Positions 771 to 9,979 of a stretch of DNA of 17,077 nt are shown piece after piece. The stretch covers positions 1 to 17,077 of the forward strand of contig JAILIR010000045.1 in the NCBI GenBank assembly GCA_024695185.1. Reading direction: 5' to 3'. The stretch's first letter is position 1. Every line of letters starts with the position of its first letter. Under the pieces are notes generated by a model. The model was not told the origin of the DNA and did not search any database. It saw only the letters and a list, made by a program, of their open reading frames with translations. The position numbers and the translations under genes were made by a program. Origin of the DNA: a bacterium. Lineage in GTDB: Bacteria; Bacillota_I; Bacilli_A; Acholeplasmatales; JAEDCM01.

Positions 771-819
771 ATTAATAAAAAAAAATTAATACTACTATGT
801 TACAAGGAGGAACAATATC

Positions 820-3800
820 ATGAGAGTATTAAAAACAAATAAAAAAGGTATAGAAGCCGTAGAGAAATTTCTAAAAGATCATCATATTGGATACCATATT
901 GTGGAAGGGACTAAGTATGTGACATTTGCGATCAGAAAGATTCCAGATGAAGCACTAAAGGAATATACAGAATTCCACAAGGTTATTACCGAGATTAACA
1001 AGGCTCTTTTAGAAGCAGAAAAGAAACAAGCCGAAAGAGAAAGGCTAAGACAAGAACAAGAACAAAAGCAAGAAGAAGAAAAAAAGACAATCACTCTTAA
1101 GGATATCACTAGGAAAAACAATGTTGATGATACTGAGTGGGATCAAATTGATGTAGAAGATGATTTTGAGGAGATAGAAAACTTTGATCGTCCTCAAGTT
1201 GTAGTTCCTGAATATATGGCAAATAAGGAACTTATTAGAAAAGTTAAGAGATTTAAAAGAAATCTTAATATGGTTGTAAAAGGGCAAGAAATAGCCATTA
1301 ATAAGTTAGTAGAGACTTATTATTTAACACACACTATCATTGATGAAAAAGACAAAGTTGTAGGAGGTTCTATCCTATTTGTAGGACCTAATGGTGTAGG
1401 TAAAACATACTTAGCAAAAGCCTTCGCTGAAGAACTAGAAAGAAAATATTTAATAGTAAACATGAGTGAATATAGTGACAAAGATTCTATCTATAGATTT
1501 AAAGGATTTGATGACACTTATAAAAACTCAACAGCTGGTGTAGTAACATCCTTTGTAGATGAAAATCCTGATAGTGTAATAATATTTGATGAAATAGATA
1601 AGGCTGATAAAAAGGTACATGATTTATTCATTGAATTATTCAATACAGGAGCTATCTTTGATGCGAAGCTTAAAAGAAAGGTATCTTTTAAAAACACATT
1701 ACTAATATTTACAACAAATGTTGGTAAGGCTATCTATGAAGATGAAAATATTGATATATCTAGAGTAGATGAAGCTAAAATAATTGATGCTATTGTTAAG
1801 GAGAAGAGTAGCGTTACAGGTGAACCTATATTTTCTAAGGCTATAGTATCTAGATTATCTTCTGGTGGAATTGTTATGTTTAACAATCTAGAGCCAAGTG
1901 TATTAATTGATATTGCTAAACATCATTTTAGGAACTGTCTAGATATCTATTCAAAGAATACAGATTTAAAAATTAAAATAAATGATGAAGATGAAATTAT
2001 ATCTGCTTTAACCTATTCGTGTGGTGGAAAAGCTGATGCTAGACGTTTAACATCACTTGTAGGAAAATATGCTAACCAAGCGATTTTAGGTGGTTTAAAA
2101 AACTTAAGCGATGCTCAATTTGATAATCTAGAAACTATTGAATTTAGAGTTAACGAAATAGAAAAAATCACCTTAGATTTAAAAGGCAAAACTAAAGGAA
2201 TAATGTTTACTTCTAAAGGACTTTATGATAGAGTAAAAGGCTTAAGAAGAGGTATTGATTTAATACATTCAGAGTCTATTGAAGAAGCCAAAGAACTACT
2301 TAAAAAAGATATTGATTTTATCATTATTGATTTAGATTTAAATGCTATAGAAGATTCTTATTCTATTGATTTAAGTGACATTTCTTCTGATGGTAGAAAA
2401 TTAGTTGATTATGTATTTGAATTTAATAGAGAAGTTCCTATCTATTTACTTAATAGAAATAGAGATCTTTGTGATTATGAACCTCTAATAAACCAAGGTG
2501 TTAAAGGTATAGTCAATTTTGATCTAACATTAAAGCAATTTAAAAATGATATTTTAGAAATTCAAAAAGCATCTTTAATTGCTAAAAAGTGTTATCAATT
2601 ACGTAGATCCAACAAAGCCTTAACTTATAAGATTAGAAAAAAGATTATTGATAAGACTCTAATAGTAGAAATGTATGATTTAAAGTATAAAACAAGTTAT
2701 CTAACTGAAGATAATGATGTTATTCTTGATTTCCAAAGACCAGATGTTAAATTTAGCGATGTCATTGGATGTGAGGATGCTATAAATACCCTAAAAGATT
2801 TTGTTAAGTATCTAGATGATCCAATGGAATACACTAAAAATGGTGCTAGAGCGCCAAGAGGTGTCCTATTATACGGACCTCCAGGAACAGGTAAGACTAC
2901 CTTAGCTAAAGCTTTAGCAGGAGAAGCTAGAGATTGTGAAATCATTCAAAAATCAGCTTCTGATTTTGTTGGCAAAGATCCATCAGTAATAGAAGATTTA
3001 TTCAATGAAGCAAGAAGATATGCTCCAGCTATTATCTTTATTGATGAAATTGACGCTATTGCTAAAGAAAGAATTGGCATTTCTAATACAGAACCATTAT
3101 TAAATAAACTTCTAACAGAACTAGATGGCTTTGAATTTAATCCTAAAAAACCAGTATTAGTAATTGCTGCAACTAATTATCCTGTTGAAAGGAAGAATGG
3201 TTGTCAAATATCATTAGATCCTGCCTTTGTAAGAAGATTTGATAGAAAAATATGTATAGATCTACCTGATGAAGCTGGTAGAAGAAAAGTAATTAAATAT
3301 TTCTTAAACACTCATAATGCAACAAATATAAGTGAAGATTGTATTAATAATATTGCTAGTAGAGCAATTCAATATAGTCCTGATAATTTAGGTAAGCTTA
3401 TTGAACATGCTATTAGAAGAGCATCTTCACCTGATAAATTAACTGATGAAATCTTAAATGATTCTTTTGATGCCAATAAGTATGGTGAAAAAGAAAACTA
3501 CTTATCATTTGAAGATAAGAAGTCTACAGCTATACATGAGGCTGGGCATGCTCTAGTAAGCTATCTAACAGGTAATGAAATATCTTATATTACTATTAGA
3601 TCTAGAGGTAGCTTTGGTGGATATGTTTCATTTAGAGAAAAAGAAAATAAAACATATAACAAGCAAGACTTATTAAATAAGATATGTATTGCCCTTGCTG
3701 GTAGAGTTGCTGAAACCATAAAATATGGCGAAACAAAGGGAACAACAACAGGTGCATCAGAAGATTTAACATATGCTACTGGCGTGGCCAAATCAATGAT

Positions 3801-4062
3801 TTGTGATTACGGAATGAGCGATAGCTTAGTAGCTTTAGAACTATTTGGTGACATTAAAGAAGAGAAAGTCTATCAAGAAGTTCACTCTATTTTAGAGAGA
3901 GAAAACAAAAGAACAAGAGAGCTTATTCTAAAAAACAAAAACAAGTTTGATGCCTTAATTATTACTTTAATGGAAAAGCAAAGCTTAACCGGAAAAGAAG
4001 TATGTGATTTATTTGCTACAGTCTTTGAAGATGATGAATTAAAAAACATAATTGAATCATAA
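820..4062 (+). CDS. Clp-type AAA+ / receiver-like / FtsH-type AAA+ / M41 metallopeptidase fusion
   Basis: A 1080-residue predicted ATP-dependent zinc protease with AAGGAGG at 804-810. Residues 55-95 are Lys/Glu/Gln-rich and probably coiled-coil. Residues 140-430 resemble the second AAA+ module of ClpB/ClpC: Walker A GPNGVGKT (189-196), Walker B VIIFDEID (253-260), sensor FTTN (297-300) and a lid with GGKADARRL (402-410). Residues 459-580 look like a degenerate response-regulator receiver with IIIDLDL around Asp504. Residues 640-880 are an FtsH-type AAA+ module: GPPGTGKT (686-693), IIFIDEID (738-745), RRFDRK (805-810). Residues 895-1070 are an M41 peptidase with HEAGH (906-910) and a likely third zinc ligand Asp982 in TTGASED. 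FtsH normally has about 600-700 residues and two N-terminal membrane helices; none is seen here, so this protein is probably soluble. Substrates are unknown. It could be an FtsH paralogue or a replacement; its catalytic motifs are intact. Confidence 0.9.
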   Translation: MRVLKTNKKGIEAVEKFLKDHHIGYHIVEGTKYVTFAIRKIPDEALKEYTEFHKVITEINKALLEAEKKQAERERLRQEQEQKQEEEKKTITLKDITRKNNVDDTEWDQIDVEDDFEEIENFDRPQVVVPEYMANKELIRKVKRFKRNLNMVVKGQEIAINKLVETYYLTHTIIDEKDKVVGGSILFVGPNGVGKTYLAKAFAEELERKYLIVNMSEYSDKDSIYRFKGFDDTYKNSTAGVVTSFVDENPDSVIIFDEIDKADKKVHDLFIELFNTGAIFDAKLKRKVSFKNTLLIFTTNVGKAIYEDENIDISRVDEAKIIDAIVKEKSSVTGEPIFSKAIVSRLSSGGIVMFNNLEPSVLIDIAKHHFRNCLDIYSKNTDLKIKINDEDEIISALTYSCGGKADARRLTSLVGKYANQAILGGLKNLSDAQFDNLETIEFRVNEIEKITLDLKGKTKGIMFTSKGLYDRVKGLRRGIDLIHSESIEEAKELLKKDIDFIIIDLDLNAIEDSYSIDLSDISSDGRKLVDYVFEFNREVPIYLLNRNRDLCDYEPLINQGVKGIVNFDLTLKQFKNDILEIQKASLIAKKCYQLRRSNKALTYKIRKKIIDKTLIVEMYDLKYKTSYLTEDNDVILDFQRPDVKFSDVIGCEDAINTLKDFVKYLDDPMEYTKNGARAPRGVLLYGPPGTGKTTLAKALAGEARDCEIIQKSASDFVGKDPSVIEDLFNEARRYAPAIIFIDEIDAIAKERIGISNTEPLLNKLLTELDGFEFNPKKPVLVIAATNYPVERKNGCQISLDPAFVRRFDRKICIDLPDEAGRRKVIKYFLNTHNATNISEDCINNIASRAIQYSPDNLGKLIEHAIRRASSPDKLTDEILNDSFDANKYGEKENYLSFEDKKSTAIHEAGHALVSYLTGNEISYITIRSRGSFGGYVSFREKENKTYNKQDLLNKICIALAGRVAETIKYGETKGTTTGASEDLTYATGVAKSMICDYGMSDSLVALELFGDIKEEKVYQEVHSILERENKRTRELILKNKNKFDALIITLMEKQSLTGKEVCDLFATVFEDDELKNIIES

Positions 4063-4101
4063 CAATAGAGGTGTTAGATTAATTTCTAACACTTTTCTAT
4101 T
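4063..4101 (+). terminator. probable terminator after the AAA+/M41 gene
   Basis: Perfect 8-base arms GTGTTAGA/TCTAACAC (4071-4078 and 4085-4092) enclose a 6-base loop and are followed by TTTT. An outer AATAGA/TCTATT pair can extend the stem across a bulge. The short, interrupted U-tract makes it weaker than the other terminators here. Confidence 0.65.
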
Positions 4102-4162: not shown

Positions 4163-5017
4163 ATGAAAATATGTAATTACTCTAACTATAGAATAGATGA
4201 CGATATAAAAATGATTGTAGAAACAGAAAAAATGAATTTAGAATTATTATCTAAAAGAACAAATATATCAAAATCTACTTTATATGAAATTTTTACTAGT
4301 GGTTTTACAACAAAAGATGTTTATGAAAAGTTTTATTCATATGCCTATTCTTTAGGATATAGAATGAACAAAGCTAAAGAAAGCATATTAAAAGAAAACA
4401 ATAAATTAGTTTTATTCCATGCCTCAAAAAAAGGATTAAGCTTAATTGATTATAACAAATCAAGAAAAAGCTGTGATTTTGGGACTGGCTTTTATCTAGG
4501 TGAATCATATGATAACTCCTTAGATTTTGTATGTGATTATTATGATTCCTCTATTTATTCTTTTATCTATGAATTAAAGAATGTTAAGGTTTTAGAACTA
4601 GCGCCATCATTAGAATGGATGCTTATAATTTGTTACTATAGAGGTCAATTGGAAAAATATAAAGATAATAAAACAATAGTTGAACTTATAAAAAAAGTAG
4701 AAGAAAGTGATGTAATTATTGCACCTATTGCTGATAATAGAATGTATTATATAATGACTCTTTTTGTAAATGGTGATATTAATGAAAATGTCGCTATAGA
4801 GACACTTATCGCTGCTAATTTAGGAAATCAATATGTATTAAAAAATGAAAAGGCATTATCAAAATTAGATTTTGTTGAGAAATATTATTTGTGTAATTTA
4901 GAAAAGCAAGATGCTTTAAATAGATTAAATAAAAGAGCTATGGATATTGATACAACTTTAAAAGAAACTAAAAGAAAATATAGAGAAGGTAGATTTGTTG
5001 AGGAGGTGTTAGAATGA
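4163..5017 (+). CDS. HTH-DUF3990 protein, ADP-ribosyltransferase-like, candidate toxin
   Basis: A 284-residue cytosolic protein with no signal peptide or membrane helix. Residues about 25-48 form a plausible helix-turn-helix (LLSKRTNISKSTLYEIF). Residues 83-232 match the DUF3990 pattern: LFHAS (84-88), DFGTGFYL (105-112), IADNRMYYI (189-197) and GNQYVLK (221-227). DUF3990 is grouped with the ADP-ribosyltransferase superfamily, so His86, Tyr111 and possibly Gln223 are candidate active-site positions; that mapping is by eye and uncertain. Residues 245-284 are charged and helical. The stop overlaps the next start (ATGA, 5014-5017), so translation is probably coupled. A toxin or modification enzyme controlled by its neighbour is the working idea. 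The enzyme activity, its target and the toxin role are not shown by sequence alone. Confidence 0.7.
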   Translation: MKICNYSNYRIDDDIKMIVETEKMNLELLSKRTNISKSTLYEIFTSGFTTKDVYEKFYSYAYSLGYRMNKAKESILKENNKLVLFHASKKGLSLIDYNKSRKSCDFGTGFYLGESYDNSLDFVCDYYDSSIYSFIYELKNVKVLELAPSLEWMLIICYYRGQLEKYKDNKTIVELIKKVEESDVIIAPIADNRMYYIMTLFVNGDINENVAIETLIAANLGNQYVLKNEKALSKLDFVEKYYLCNLEKQDALNRLNKRAMDIDTTLKETKRKYREGRFVEEVLE

Positions 5018-5493
5018 GAGAATTTGATACTAACGGTCTTAGACTTGCTGAATATCAAGCAAAGCTATTTGAGGCATCACATGATAGATTTAAGTGTTCC
5101 TCGAGCGTCTTTTTAAGAAGATTTTTGCATTCTGAATTATTAGAAAGAATGGATAAAAATAATTCAGCTATTCTATCACTAGATGTAATAGAAGGGCTAA
5201 ACGACATAGAGGATGAATTTGGTATAAGCGAATATGGAAATACAAAATATAATTATGATTCCTTATTTTGGGTAGGATATATGTATAGATATATTTCCTA
5301 CACAAGAAACGTAAGCACTATCTTTTTGTTTAAAACTTTTGATTATAAAAAAATGTTTGAACTATATTATCCTTTACATACTCAGGATCCTGAATGGGTT
5401 ATTAGAAGTTTATTGGAATTGTATAATTTAAATGAAGATTATTTTGATCCAAACTATAGATTTAAACAAGAACTCAGAAAACGTGTTAGTTAA
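5014..5493 (+). CDS. small partner of the DUF3990 protein, candidate antitoxin
   Basis: A 159-residue soluble protein of unknown function, preceded by a strong AGGAGGTG (5001-5008) and overlapping the DUF3990 gene by 4 bases. The middle and C-terminal parts carry aromatic-rich motifs, WVGYMYRYISYTR (86-98) and YYPLHTQDPEWVI (118-130). I recall such motifs from small uncharacterised Firmicutes proteins, including ones next to DUF3990 genes, but cannot verify this here. No known DNA-binding, enzyme or membrane motif is visible. The tight coupling, shared promoter and size fit an antitoxin or an accessory subunit. Downstream, a terminator hairpin overlaps the stop codon and closes the two-gene unit. 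Confidence 0.65.
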   Translation: MREFDTNGLRLAEYQAKLFEASHDRFKCSSSVFLRRFLHSELLERMDKNNSAILSLDVIEGLNDIEDEFGISEYGNTKYNYDSLFWVGYMYRYISYTRNVSTIFLFKTFDYKKMFELYYPLHTQDPEWVIRSLLELYNLNEDYFDPNYRFKQELRKRVS

Positions 5494-5581: not shown

Positions 5582-8500
5582 ATGAATAAAAAAAGTATTG
5601 TAAAACTTGGAGCATGCTCTTTACTTGTAGGTTTATTAGCTTTAACTGCATGTGGGAAAAAGACCACAGCTAAGCCAAGTACTACAGCTAAGCCAATAAC
5701 AAAAACAACAGAAAAGACAACTGCGACAACTAAAACAACAAAAACAACAAAGAAAACAACTAAAAAGCAAACTACTACAGAAGATACTTCTAAAAAAGTA
5801 GTAGACTTTAATGTTTATGTAGATGATGTATTAGCTCCTACTGAAGGAGAAAATGCTGTAATAGCATTTACATATCTAGATGGATATGATTATGCTAGTC
5901 ATATTAGTGTTGAAGCTATTTATGATGATGATACTAAAGAAGAAATTGATAGTACAAAATATAAATTAGAAACTGATTTAACAGCCACATCTGAATGTGC
6001 TAGTGCTATGGAACCAGGAGCATATTCTATTGAAATTAGTTATGGTGAACTTAGTAAAAAGGTAAATATCGATGTCTTAATATATCAACAAGAAATAGAT
6101 ATTTCTAATCTAGCATGGAGTAATGCTACATTTACATATAATGGTAGTGAACAAGAATTAGAATTATTAAATATACCTACATTACCTACTGGTATGAGTA
6201 TTAATGTTACTGGTAATAAAGGAACTAATGCTGGTAATTATACAGCTTTAGTAGAATTAGTTAGAGATAATAAAAACTATGTTTGGGCAAGTGATCTACC
6301 TACAGGTATTAATAACCATAAATGGACAATCGATAAATTAAGTGTTGATACATCTAATATTGAATGGGCTTATGATGGACCTATTGAATATAGTGGTGCA
6401 GAAAACATTATCGAGCTTGATGAAACTACAATTCCTGAAGGCGTACAAGTAATATATACAGATAATGAAGCAACAGAAGTAGGTACTTATAAAGCAAGAG
6501 CAACTTTTGTGACAAATGCTAATGTTGAATATTCTAATGCATATATTGAGTTAGATTATGAAATTATTAAATGTGATGCTAAATTTGTTAGTGTTTCTAA
6601 CCCAACAAGAGTATATAATGGTGAAGAAATAGAAATTGAATATGTTAATAATGTTGATGCTGATGTCACTATTACTTATAGAAAGTACGATGAATATGAT
6701 GAAGAAGAATATTCATCTGTTGTACCAGTAGATGCTGGAGCTTATCAAGCACGATTAGTTATTGAAGGAACAGATAACTATAATGGATGCGAAAAAGAAA
6801 TATGTTTTACTATTGAAAAACAAGAAATTGCGCTACCTAATGGCAATTACAGCAGTGATGCAAGTTCTGATCATAAAAATATCTATATTGTAACATATAC
6901 AGGTTCTGAACAAGAACTAGTATTAGAAGGCTTCGATGAAGATGTTATGGAATTTTATGATGATGATTTAACTCAAAGTGAAATTGGTGTATATGAGTAT
7001 ATTGTTGGAATTAAAGAAGAATATCAAAAAAACTATAGATTTGAAAATAATAGTTCTGATGCAAAAATGTATTATTATTTTAAGATTATAGGCGAATTAT
7101 CTAGTTATGTTGATTCAATCAAGTATAATGATGAAACAATAAGTCTTGATGATTTTGAAGACTTAGAATTAACATACAGAGGCGATAAATTTGAATTTAG
7201 TTTAAAAGAAGGATATAGTATTAATTTTTCTTCTTATACAGAGGATGAAAATATCTATATCAATGAATGGGGCGAAAATTTTGAATTTGAAATAGTTGAT
7301 GAATTTTATGATACAGTGTATTCAAGAAAAATTAAAGCAGCTCATTATTCTGGTATTGAAGGTTATTATATTAATGGAAAATATATAGATTCATCAATTA
7401 GTTTTGGCGACTATTCTTATATGTTTAGCAACGAGGAAGAAATTGAATTACAATTCGTTTTCAATAAATATATAAATCTTTTAAAAATTAATTATGAAGA
7501 CCTTGATTATAGTCAAACAACTTATACATTTAGAATCGATGAGTTAGAATATGGTTATATAGATATTTATACAGAAACAGACGAAAATCAAAGCTCATTT
7601 GCAATTTCACTGATAGATGAAAGCAAGTTAATTGTTAAAAGTATAGATGTTATAAGTGTTGAAGTGGGTTCGTCAAATGCGAAAGTTAGTAATATCAAAT
7701 ATGATGGTGGAAGTATTTCTGGATATTTTTATGGCTCTATTGTTATAGGCTTAAGAGTAAACTTTGCTAGCGGTTATGAATTTGCTACTTATAAGATAAT
7801 AGATGAATATACAAGTAAAGAACTAGATTTTTATAATTGTAGAGCAGGAGATATTTATGCTTATCTTGTTTGCTATGACGAAGATGGAAAAGAAATAGAT
7901 AAAATTTTAGTTCAATTAACTGAACATCAGTTTGAGTTAAATAATGATAATTTCAGTTATTCTATGAGTGATGCTATTAGGCATTTTAGGTCTACAGATC
8001 AAGCTAAAACAGTATTTGAACCTAATTATATACCTGGGGATGTAGAAGTAAAAATTAAAGGAACTAATACAAACGAAGTAACTTATACAAGCTATGGTAT
8101 TTATAGAGAAACAATTGAGTTTAAATGGAATTATATTGGCTTTGAATGTATAAGATATATGTTAGTAGATGTAATTTATAGTCCAAGGATTAAGGATTAT
8201 GCTGATAATTTAGGGTTTATCTTAAATACTGAAGATGGAGATGTAAGAATATATGATTCTGATGATGAAGGATGCGAAAATATCATCAATAAAGAGAGTG
8301 GCTGTTCTTGGAATAATATATTAAATATTAATGATTTACTAAAACTAACAAAAGATGATTTAGTATATGATGGCCTAAAAGATGGCTATACATTAGATTA
8401 TAGTAAATCAAGTATTGAATTTGTTGGATTAGATGATAAAGAACAAACAAGAGTTATCATAAAATATGCTTTAACTAAAGATGAGGAAACAGTTTATTTA

Positions 8501-9979
8501 TATGCTATAAGCTATCACTATGGTTATATAACTGATAATACTAAAGTAGAAGGTGAAAAAATAACTGGTGAATGTTCTATTCTTGATATTGATGACTATG
8601 AAGTAGATATAGTAGAAGATACTGTAACTATAGAAAACTCTAATGCCTTCTTTGAGTATGAAATAGATTTAGAAGAAGAATGCCATATAGAATTAAGAGA
8701 TGGAAACGGAAAAGTTATTGTGGAAGATGATGACAATTATTTATATTTCCACTTTAATAGTGAAGGAACTTATTTATTAATCATTACAACAAATAGTGGC
8801 GCAACAAGAACAATTACTATAACTGTAACTGGTAATTTTGGTAATGTATTTGAAACAAGTATAGGCGATGGCGAATTACTATATTACAATACAGATGGTA
8901 AGAATAATATGGCAGTTAATGTTGACTATGATACAGATGTTTCATACATTACAGGCTTCTATGGTGCTAGTAGCGCTAGTGCTATTACTTCTACAAATAC
9001 AGTAGATGTATATATTGGCGGACTATTCTTCGATAGATTATATATGGATGAAGATTTAACTATTCCACTAACTAGTACAACAACTACATTTAATGTAATG
9101 TATAGTGGTGATGTTCCATATATTAATGCATATATGTATGATGTAATTATTACATTATATCTAGCTGATAAACCAGAACAAGAAGCTGTTTTAACTATTG
9201 ATGAAGAAGAATATGGTATTATCCATAGCTTGGATGATTTAGATAATCCATATCATGGTGATTTAACTGAATATATCTTTATGCCATTAGGATGTAGTAC
9301 TTTAACTTTAACAACTGAAGAAGTATATGATGATTATAGTTATGCCTTAGTATTTATTACTGACCCAGATGTATTAGAAGGATATGATTCATATAGTAAA
9401 TTAGAAGAAGATGGATTACTTTATAGAGTAACTGATAACGATACATTAAGTGTAAATGTCGATTTATCTAGTTATGGTTTGACAGCATATATGGGTATAG
9501 TTCCAAAGGGTTCAACAGATTCAAATTATAATGTTTCTAATTGGATACAAATTGTTGTATTCCCATCTTTAAATATATTTACTATTAGTAACGGTGTAGA
9601 TGATTATTATGCTGATATAGCCGCAGAATTTGATGGTGGTGACGTAGCTTATGATGAAGATACAAATGCTTATCAAGCAAGCAATCTAACTCCAATGGGC
9701 TTCAACTCACAATATGTATTCTTTATTGGTTTTGATGAATATGATAATATTGATAGCGATGGATACTATAATTTCACATTCACTTCATCGTTCCCTATTA
9801 CAGGAAATCTAACATATGGTAATGGTGATCCAATTGAATATGATAGTACTACTAATACAGCAAAATATTTAGTTCCTGAATTTGGTGATGAAGATGTACC
9901 ACAAATGGTATTACACTTTAATTTTTATGGACTACCTGTATCAATAGTATTAGTATTCTTTGATCCATTAATGCCTTAA
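5582..9979 (+). CDS. large MBG-repeat surface lipoprotein
   Basis: A 1465-residue predicted lipoprotein. Residues 1-23 form a lipoprotein signal peptide (basic MNKK start, hydrophobic core) ending in the lipobox LTAC with acceptor Cys24. Residues 26-70 are a Thr/Lys-rich spacer of the kind that lifts a domain off the membrane. About four MBG-like immunoglobulin-fold repeats follow (roughly 177-250, 259-329, 337-412, 436-500), each starting with a motif such as YNGSEQEL and ending with one such as AGNYTAL. The remainder is rich in Asp, Glu, Tyr and Ile, looks all-beta and has no enzyme motif that I recognise. There is no LPXTG signal, so anchoring is by lipid alone. Adhesion or surface binding is the family-level expectation; the ligand is unknown. 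It is monocistronic, with its own promoter and terminator. Confidence 0.8.
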   Translation: MNKKSIVKLGACSLLVGLLALTACGKKTTAKPSTTAKPITKTTEKTTATTKTTKTTKKTTKKQTTTEDTSKKVVDFNVYVDDVLAPTEGENAVIAFTYLDGYDYASHISVEAIYDDDTKEEIDSTKYKLETDLTATSECASAMEPGAYSIEISYGELSKKVNIDVLIYQQEIDISNLAWSNATFTYNGSEQELELLNIPTLPTGMSINVTGNKGTNAGNYTALVELVRDNKNYVWASDLPTGINNHKWTIDKLSVDTSNIEWAYDGPIEYSGAENIIELDETTIPEGVQVIYTDNEATEVGTYKARATFVTNANVEYSNAYIELDYEIIKCDAKFVSVSNPTRVYNGEEIEIEYVNNVDADVTITYRKYDEYDEEEYSSVVPVDAGAYQARLVIEGTDNYNGCEKEICFTIEKQEIALPNGNYSSDASSDHKNIYIVTYTGSEQELVLEGFDEDVMEFYDDDLTQSEIGVYEYIVGIKEEYQKNYRFENNSSDAKMYYYFKIIGELSSYVDSIKYNDETISLDDFEDLELTYRGDKFEFSLKEGYSINFSSYTEDENIYINEWGENFEFEIVDEFYDTVYSRKIKAAHYSGIEGYYINGKYIDSSISFGDYSYMFSNEEEIELQFVFNKYINLLKINYEDLDYSQTTYTFRIDELEYGYIDIYTETDENQSSFAISLIDESKLIVKSIDVISVEVGSSNAKVSNIKYDGGSISGYFYGSIVIGLRVNFASGYEFATYKIIDEYTSKELDFYNCRAGDIYAYLVCYDEDGKEIDKILVQLTEHQFELNNDNFSYSMSDAIRHFRSTDQAKTVFEPNYIPGDVEVKIKGTNTNEVTYTSYGIYRETIEFKWNYIGFECIRYMLVDVIYSPRIKDYADNLGFILNTEDGDVRIYDSDDEGCENIINKESGCSWNNILNINDLLKLTKDDLVYDGLKDGYTLDYSKSSIEFVGLDDKEQTRVIIKYALTKDEETVYLYAISYHYGYITDNTKVEGEKITGECSILDIDDYEVDIVEDTVTIENSNAFFEYEIDLEEECHIELRDGNGKVIVEDDDNYLYFHFNSEGTYLLIITTNSGATRTITITVTGNFGNVFETSIGDGELLYYNTDGKNNMAVNVDYDTDVSYITGFYGASSASAITSTNTVDVYIGGLFFDRLYMDEDLTIPLTSTTTTFNVMYSGDVPYINAYMYDVIITLYLADKPEQEAVLTIDEEEYGIIHSLDDLDNPYHGDLTEYIFMPLGCSTLTLTTEEVYDDYSYALVFITDPDVLEGYDSYSKLEEDGLLYRVTDNDTLSVNVDLSSYGLTAYMGIVPKGSTDSNYNVSNWIQIVVFPSLNIFTISNGVDDYYADIAAEFDGGDVAYDEDTNAYQASNLTPMGFNSQYVFFIGFDEYDNIDSDGYYNFTFTSSFPITGNLTYGNGDPIEYDSTTNTAKYLVPEFGDEDVPQMVLHFNFYGLPVSIVLVFFDPLMP
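5663..5790 (+). repeat. low-complexity ACA/AAA region encoding the Thr/Lys spacer
   Basis: The DNA is a loose run of ACA, ACT and AAA codons. It includes a 13-base direct repeat (5666-5678 and 5684-5696, period 18 bases) that encodes two TTAKP units. Such tracts can change length by slippage. Confidence 0.7.

Follow-up and report, generated by a model that had tools for sequence, protein, structure and literature searches.

A predicted soluble FtsH-like protease with two AAA+ modules and a receiver-like domain from an Acholeplasmatales genome

Reviews describe FtsH as a membrane-anchored AAA+ protease (PMC9020784, PMC7226402). In the second of them, anchoring in the membrane is called unique to the FtsH-like proteases of mitochondria, and the AAA+ enzymes named as carrying a protease on the same chain are FtsH and Lon. 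The anchor can be replaced by engineering. As reported in PMC5095350, YME1L is an active protease when a hexameric, soluble coiled coil takes the place of its membrane span, so the anchor's part can be played by a soluble oligomeriser. Here we describe a bacterial gene whose product may carry such an oligomeriser naturally. The gene occupies positions 820..4062 of a 17,077-nucleotide stretch of contig JAILIR010000045.1, the whole of which we call the window, and encodes a 1080-residue protein in which a Clp-type AAA+ module, a receiver-like domain, an FtsH-type AAA+ module and an M41 peptidase follow one another on a single chain. We lean towards reading it as a soluble, one-chain, two-ring AAA+ unfoldase–protease that would resemble ClpAP, with the pseudo-receiver as a docking platform. 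As far as we have found, FtsH and a Clp-type ATPase are known as gene neighbours, not as one chain. The original prediction left undecided whether the arrangement was already a characterised family; no description of it turned up in the open-licence literature, which leaves most subscription papers outside and so is weak evidence of absence.

Domain architecture and motifs

The gene, its signals and the domains of its product are laid out as follows, in window coordinates.

804..810, plus strand: Shine–Dalgarno sequence AAGGAGG, read in the sequence, 9 nt 5' of the ATG
820..4062, plus strand: two-AAA+ FtsH-like protease, a single uninterrupted open reading frame (ORF) of 1080 amino acids with an ATG start
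820..1239, plus strand: N-terminal region, residues 1-140, charged and poorly conserved, with no Pfam match above cut-off
1240..2139, plus strand: AAA1, a Clp/HSP100 D2-like AAA+ module, residues 141-440, from AAA_2 and Clp profiles and fold matches
2173..2610, plus strand: receiver-like (pseudo-receiver) domain, residues 452-597, from hhalign and a low-confidence model
2611..2742, plus strand: β-rich linker, residues 598-641, from the secondary structure of a low-confidence model and the alignment
2743..3489, plus strand: AAA2, an FtsH-type AAA+ module, residues 642-890, from Pfam, NCBIfam and motifs
3490..4029, plus strand: Peptidase M41 domain, residues 891-1070, from Pfam, with HEAGH at 906-910 and D982
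4067..4096, plus strand: terminator-like hairpin, 3' of the stop codon

Three Pfam domains carry this layout, and each scores above its curated cut-off: AAA_2 reaches 113 bits against 27 (residues 183-316), AAA 152.7 bits against 21.2 (residues 682-814) and Peptidase_M41 108.3 bits against 29.9 (residues 895-1062). The claim with which this work began, that two AAA+ modules and an M41 peptidase share a single chain, therefore stands. The C-terminal half is matched by the NCBIfam FtsH model (TIGR01241) over residues 639-1061 with 313.2 bits, under its equivalog cut-off of 600, and positions 155-598 of the 598 in the FtsH_fam profile align to the protein. Toward the N terminus the ClpV1 model of NCBIfam covers residues 46-413 with 143.6 bits, and ClpA (124.3 bits, cut-off 993) and ClpB (101.5 bits, cut-off 1232) match stretches that overlap it; no Clp profile reaches its equivalog cut-off. 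A structure model of AAA1 matches ClpC, ClpB and ClpA in a fold search. By profile and by fold AAA1 lies nearest to the D2 module of Clp proteins, which agrees with the ClpB-D2-like character first assigned to it.

Both motors of the window protein are complete in their motifs, as is the zinc site. AAA1 has Walker A and B, sensor 1, an arginine finger, sensor 2 and a pore-loop tyrosine, Tyr234; AAA2 has Walker A and B and the arginines of the second region of homology (SRH); HEAGH and D982 are in place in the peptidase. We take the individual residues of the Walker motifs, sensors, finger and zinc site to have their customary roles. Sequence comparison with ordinary FtsH shows the pore-loop region of AAA2 to be shortened by about four residues. 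A loop of the form IG[FL] is the ClpP-binding motif, and none of the six members of the family (the window protein and the five relatives introduced below) has it in the corresponding segment of AAA1; ClpP is thus an unlikely partner.

Hydropathy sets the protein apart from its membrane-bound namesake. Its highest 19-residue value is 1.11, within a range of 1.11-1.43 for the six members, as against 3.07 and 3.09 for ordinary FtsH from two congeneric genomes, and a search by hydropathy found no membrane helix in any of the six. Thus the original prediction, in which all Walker A/B and HEAGH motifs were intact and no membrane helix was visible, is upheld on both counts by motif inspection and by these values.

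The region between the two motors had been read as receiver-like, and here Pfam alone would have left us empty-handed, as a scan of the middle region finds neither a receiver (PF00072) match nor any other notable one at residues 452-597. Comparison of profiles tells more. When the six-member alignment was compared by hhalign with eleven receivers from related genomes (11 of the 16 receiver loci fetched were used), the result was 79%, or 83% with tighter bounds. The controls were eight segments from elsewhere in these proteins, which scored less than 1%, and five column-shuffled copies, none of which exceeded 0.2%. A single-sequence model of this domain on its own, the best of five, has a mean predicted local distance difference test score (pLDDT) of 53 and contains five alternating strands and helices, the final helix long and followed by β strands; a model spanning AAA1 and the receiver-like domain has a mean pLDDT of 59, with the receiver part below 50. 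Of the 50 PDB matches shown in a fold search with the low-confidence receiver model, 49 are receivers or response regulators by title and one is SufS. They include NtrC1, DctD, FleQ-type domains and RssB, along with CosR, which we take to be a response regulator. TM-scores by query ran from 0.29 to 0.45, and 12 of 878 matches had E ≤0.001. A profile search of the PDB with the middle-region alignment returned 8 matches at E ≤10; three of these were designed TIM barrels (E about 1e-5), and response regulators came in only at 0.25 and 1.0. Receivers use for phosphotransfer an Asp after strand 3, a Thr or Ser after strand 4 and a Lys after strand 5. As aligned, the Asp is present in five of the six members, a Ser after strand 4 in two and the Lys in none. 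The profile comparison with its controls and the low-confidence fold together support reading residues 452-597 as a putative pseudo-receiver, and the earlier reading of the region is backed at those two levels.

Relatives and variation among them

Proteins with the same domain order are encoded in five further genomes, which belong to two orders of a single class, each protein in one ORF of 941-1180 residues; the receiver-like domain is part of that common order in all six members of the alignment. The original prediction had proposed, as a check, a search for proteins with AAA_2, AAA and Peptidase_M41, and these five have the window protein's order of parts. G485 (1180 residues) and G408 (992) came from a search of 160 genomes of the window's order, G186 (941) from a draw of 392 genomes of the phylum, and G752 (1039) and G806 (1045) were found beside G186 in a search of 279 genomes of its order. 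Their identities to the window protein are 45, 36, 32, 27 and 26%, highest in AAA2 (62-30%). In trees of the AAA2–M41 part the six form one group, with support from the Shimodaira–Hasegawa-like approximate likelihood ratio test of 99 in a 54-row quick tree, which was restricted to ORFs aligned over 300 columns or more, and of 100 in a 36-row quick tree, which omitted 18 of those rows. Their branches are long. It follows from the grouping that the window gene is not a recent copy of the FtsH of its own genus, and a single origin of the six members is likely from these trees.

Few of the genomes searched carry the protein. Among the matches listed it occurs in 3 of 160 genomes of the window's order and in 3 of 279 of the order of G186; a profile built from the six members again found 3 of 160 in the window's order among the matches listed and, in a draw of 395 genomes of the class, only G000 and G186 among the matches listed. 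The draws overlap, so that these counts are not additive, and the E-value limits were strict enough for much weaker-scoring members to escape. When the 395 class genomes were searched with the middle region, weak matches with E between 4e-4 and 0.009 came from 8 further genomes; no family member was among them. Seven long FtsH frames of 802-904 residues from the search of G186's order were considered as further members and set aside: with a single Walker A motif and a pair of hydrophobic segments apiece, they are ordinary long FtsH. No record in a tblastn search of phages and plasmids covered 80% of the window protein, and none of the best 80 of 99 relatives on viral contigs covered both AAA modules and M41. 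A poorly specific scan of genome contigs with the single protein, which used unspecific peptides, led to two confirmed loci, an FtsH of 602 residues and an ORF matched solely by its AAA modules. How widespread the architecture is had been left undecided at the outset; within the class it is rare in the genomes searched, and spread beyond the class is hardly covered by these searches.

The six members do not keep everything alike. Counted as aligned, the zinc ligands, the catalytic Glu and the P-loop Lys of both motors are present in all six. The Walker B Asp-Glu, pore Tyr, arginine finger and sensor-2 Arg of AAA1 are kept in four, as are the Walker B Asp-Glu and the first SRH arginines of AAA2; the second SRH Arg is kept in five, with a Lys in G186. 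Motor losses in AAA1 and AAA2 are not scattered over the family and fall in G752 and G806 every time, both of which retain one SRH Arg besides their P-loop lysines. Directly upstream of each of these two members is a gene for a protein of 143 residues (locus L144, 722-1153, plus strand, and locus L145, 4601-5032, minus strand); the two products are 31% identical and have no family match in a Pfam scan, and they are possible partners of the members with decayed motors. The G485 member is preceded directly by a 142-residue gene (locus L059, 12918-13346, minus strand) that is weakly TerB-like, under the cut-off. No clear family emerged for the relatives' small genes, whether upstream or adjacent, and we claim no conserved partner.

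Genomic setting

Divergent from the protease gene lies the neighbour with which its contig begins.

2..631, minus strand: 5' part of a tilS-like gene, 210 amino acids, cut by the contig end, named by eye

Over residues 2-210 of the G002 counterpart, identity to its product is 85%. In G001 and G002, both of the window's genus, maf is followed by tilS-hpt-ftsH in the opposite orientation (maf, tilS and hpt named by eye), and the protease gene occupies the position that maf has there, through either an insertion or a rearrangement. The original prediction had asked whether a separate membrane FtsH exists. All five other carriers have another M41 gene that scores better, at 149-232 bits (in one carrier it is a fragment lying at a contig end); in the window's genome, which is in 248 contigs and 72% complete, the M41 search found only the gene at 820-4062. 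Because the contig stops inside tilS, the genus order is tilS-hpt-ftsH and the genome is incomplete, its ordinary FtsH is probably unassembled, with hpt-ftsH just past the contig end.

The same searches brought up other M41 genes. G806 has a third one on its contig C12, for a 508-residue AAA plus M41 protein with no membrane helix by hydropathy (L160, 4286-5812, minus strand). On contig C5 of G037 a 630-residue protein joins an extra N-terminal P-loop part to AAA and M41, again with no membrane helix by hydropathy (L057, 4199-6091, minus strand); the end of a second M41 gene lies at 19461-20000 (minus strand), and the stretch, which has regulator-like and nuclease-like genes by eye, is perhaps a defence or mobile island. 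L050 and the small genomes G271, G451 and G452 of the same order have four strong FtsH-type matches each, which fits phytoplasmas and would identify the order as Acholeplasmatales.

Downstream of the protease gene, a gene at 4163-5493 (plus strand) encodes a helix–turn–helix-like start and a DUF3990 domain and matches several PADLOC models of phage-defence candidates; it overlaps a 159-residue gene, and the two look like a unit of their own. A gene at 5582-9979 (plus strand) encodes a 1465-residue protein that resembles a lipoprotein; its start is rich in Thr and Lys, and Pfam has no match for it. In the 5 kb scanned, terminator-like hairpins number 2, where 0.8 were expected (standard deviation 0.9), and promoter-like sites are at chance level (23 found, 30.7 expected).

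Readings of the protein and known systems

How might such a protein work? In the reading towards which we lean, a hexamer would assemble through AAA1, AAA2 and M41, and the Clp D2-like ring would replace the membrane anchor of FtsH in holding it together. The same ring, with its pore-loop tyrosine, would be the first motor to grip and unfold a substrate. Between the stacked rings, the receiver-like domain and β linker would form a platform, for docking or for regulation, that receives a substrate or an adaptor and is no phosphorylation switch, and the substrate would next be threaded through the FtsH-type ring into the zinc chamber of M41. The enzyme would thus do the job of ClpAP or ClpCP in one chain, acting on cytosolic substrates alongside an ordinary membrane FtsH.

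Several observations weigh against this reading. G752 and G806 are without the Walker B pairs of both motors and without the pore loop, arginine finger and sensor-2 Arg of AAA1, and ATP-driven unfolding is therefore unlikely as a trait of the whole family. The pore region of AAA2 is short in the window protein and in G485, and the FVG motif is absent from the other four members, so AAA2 may not translocate as FtsH does. Of the members found in the window's order, none comes from the 88 high-quality genomes there; the three carriers are all 72-77% complete (G186, G752 and G806 are 92-96% complete). The structure models that cover the receiver-like domain are low in confidence, as the pLDDT values above make plain. 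Mitochondrial AAA proteases from which the span was merely removed gave no hexamers (PMC5095350), so a soluble FtsH would depend on AAA1 being able to oligomerise.

The same variation can be turned into another explanation, in which AAA1 and the receiver-like domain, instead of being a processive motor, are a scaffold for assembly and recognition, the motors mainly gate access and M41 makes limited cuts at specific sites in one or a few regulatory targets. G752 and G806, which have lost those motor residues and kept the zinc site and their overall length, would suit such an arrangement, as would the short AAA2 pore loop of the window protein and the 143-residue genes as sources of a partner. 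A mere scaffold, however, would not need the motor residues that are kept: the window protein and two other members have all of those checked, and G186 all but the second SRH arginine. We regard the scaffold reading as rather unlikely.

A role in defence, with the protein sensing a phage product and cleaving host or phage targets, is a good deal less probable. IetAS is a defence system of the AAA-ATPase plus protease type, and the PADLOC models IetA (3.1e-33) and DolB (2e-22) match the AAA modules of the window protein; the next gene encodes the DUF3990 protein with its phage-defence matches and small overlapping partner, and in G408 a fragment that looks by eye like a DNA methyltransferase lies nearby. 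The PADLOC matches, however, fall on generic AAA+ modules for which FtsH and Clp profiles score higher, and a terminator-like hairpin separates the protease gene from the DUF3990 gene. The five other loci have mostly housekeeping or signalling genes, with no DUF3990-like neighbour by eye, family searches not having been run on every neighbour. AAA2 and part of the linker do resemble IetA-type ATPases, but those models, of 262-395 positions, cover the AAA part only; the IteA_antiphage profile gives 99.1 bits, under its cut-off of 510, and no gene for a subtilisin, the partner in IetAS, was recognised by eye among the ORFs of the window. That a frameshift, mis-assembly or mis-binned contig joined two genes or brought in a foreign one is barely credible, fragmented as the assembly is and with the gene in only one of three genomes of the genus, since five other genomes have the same domain order, receiver-like domain included, which refutes a fusion artefact, and the adjacent tilS-like gene closely matches its genus counterpart.

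If the unfoldase–protease reading is true, nature would have supplied a soluble FtsH to which a motor of another AAA+ clade has been added. Such an enzyme would reveal the purpose of the membrane anchor, would make a soluble M41 hexamer available with no need to engineer one and would let one test directly how two unlike motors share a substrate path. We would go further only tentatively, to a separate, undescribed class of soluble AAA+ proteases that combines Clp-type and classic FtsH-type motors with a pseudo-receiver and a zinc protease and has a sister branch in which the motors are pseudo-ATPases and the protease is kept. Such a class would make it possible to set an ATP-driven form of a machine beside a form of the same machine that works without ATP.

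The putative receiver fold, with its matches in a search with the low-confidence model, would be shared with the regulators NtrC1 and DctD, which combine a receiver with AAA+, and with the receiver adaptor RssB; the window protein's domain differs in having no phosphotransfer Lys and no Pfam receiver match and in sitting beside a different class of AAA+. A link to the NtrC or RssB mechanism is an analogy we assume. Another comparison is with plasmid-borne ftsH genes beside clpK-type genes, as on a Ciceribacter plasmid, where an FtsH gene adjoins a large Clp-type AAA ATPase gene; these are two separate genes, with ftsH first on the Ciceribacter plasmid. With FtsH/HflB and the m-AAA and i-AAA proteases (TIGR01241, M41) the window protein shares AAA2 followed by M41, the SRH arginines, HExGH and the Asp as third ligand, but it has no membrane helix, its AAA2 pore loop is shortened, and AAA2 is preceded by an extra AAA+ module of Clp type and the receiver-like domain. 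With the D2 modules of ClpA, ClpC and ClpB (HSP100), AAA1 is alike by profile and fold and in its pore tyrosine, arginine finger and sensor-2 arginine; unlike those proteins, the window protein has one Clp-type module and no ClpP-loop motif, and it carries a zinc M41 protease on the same chain.

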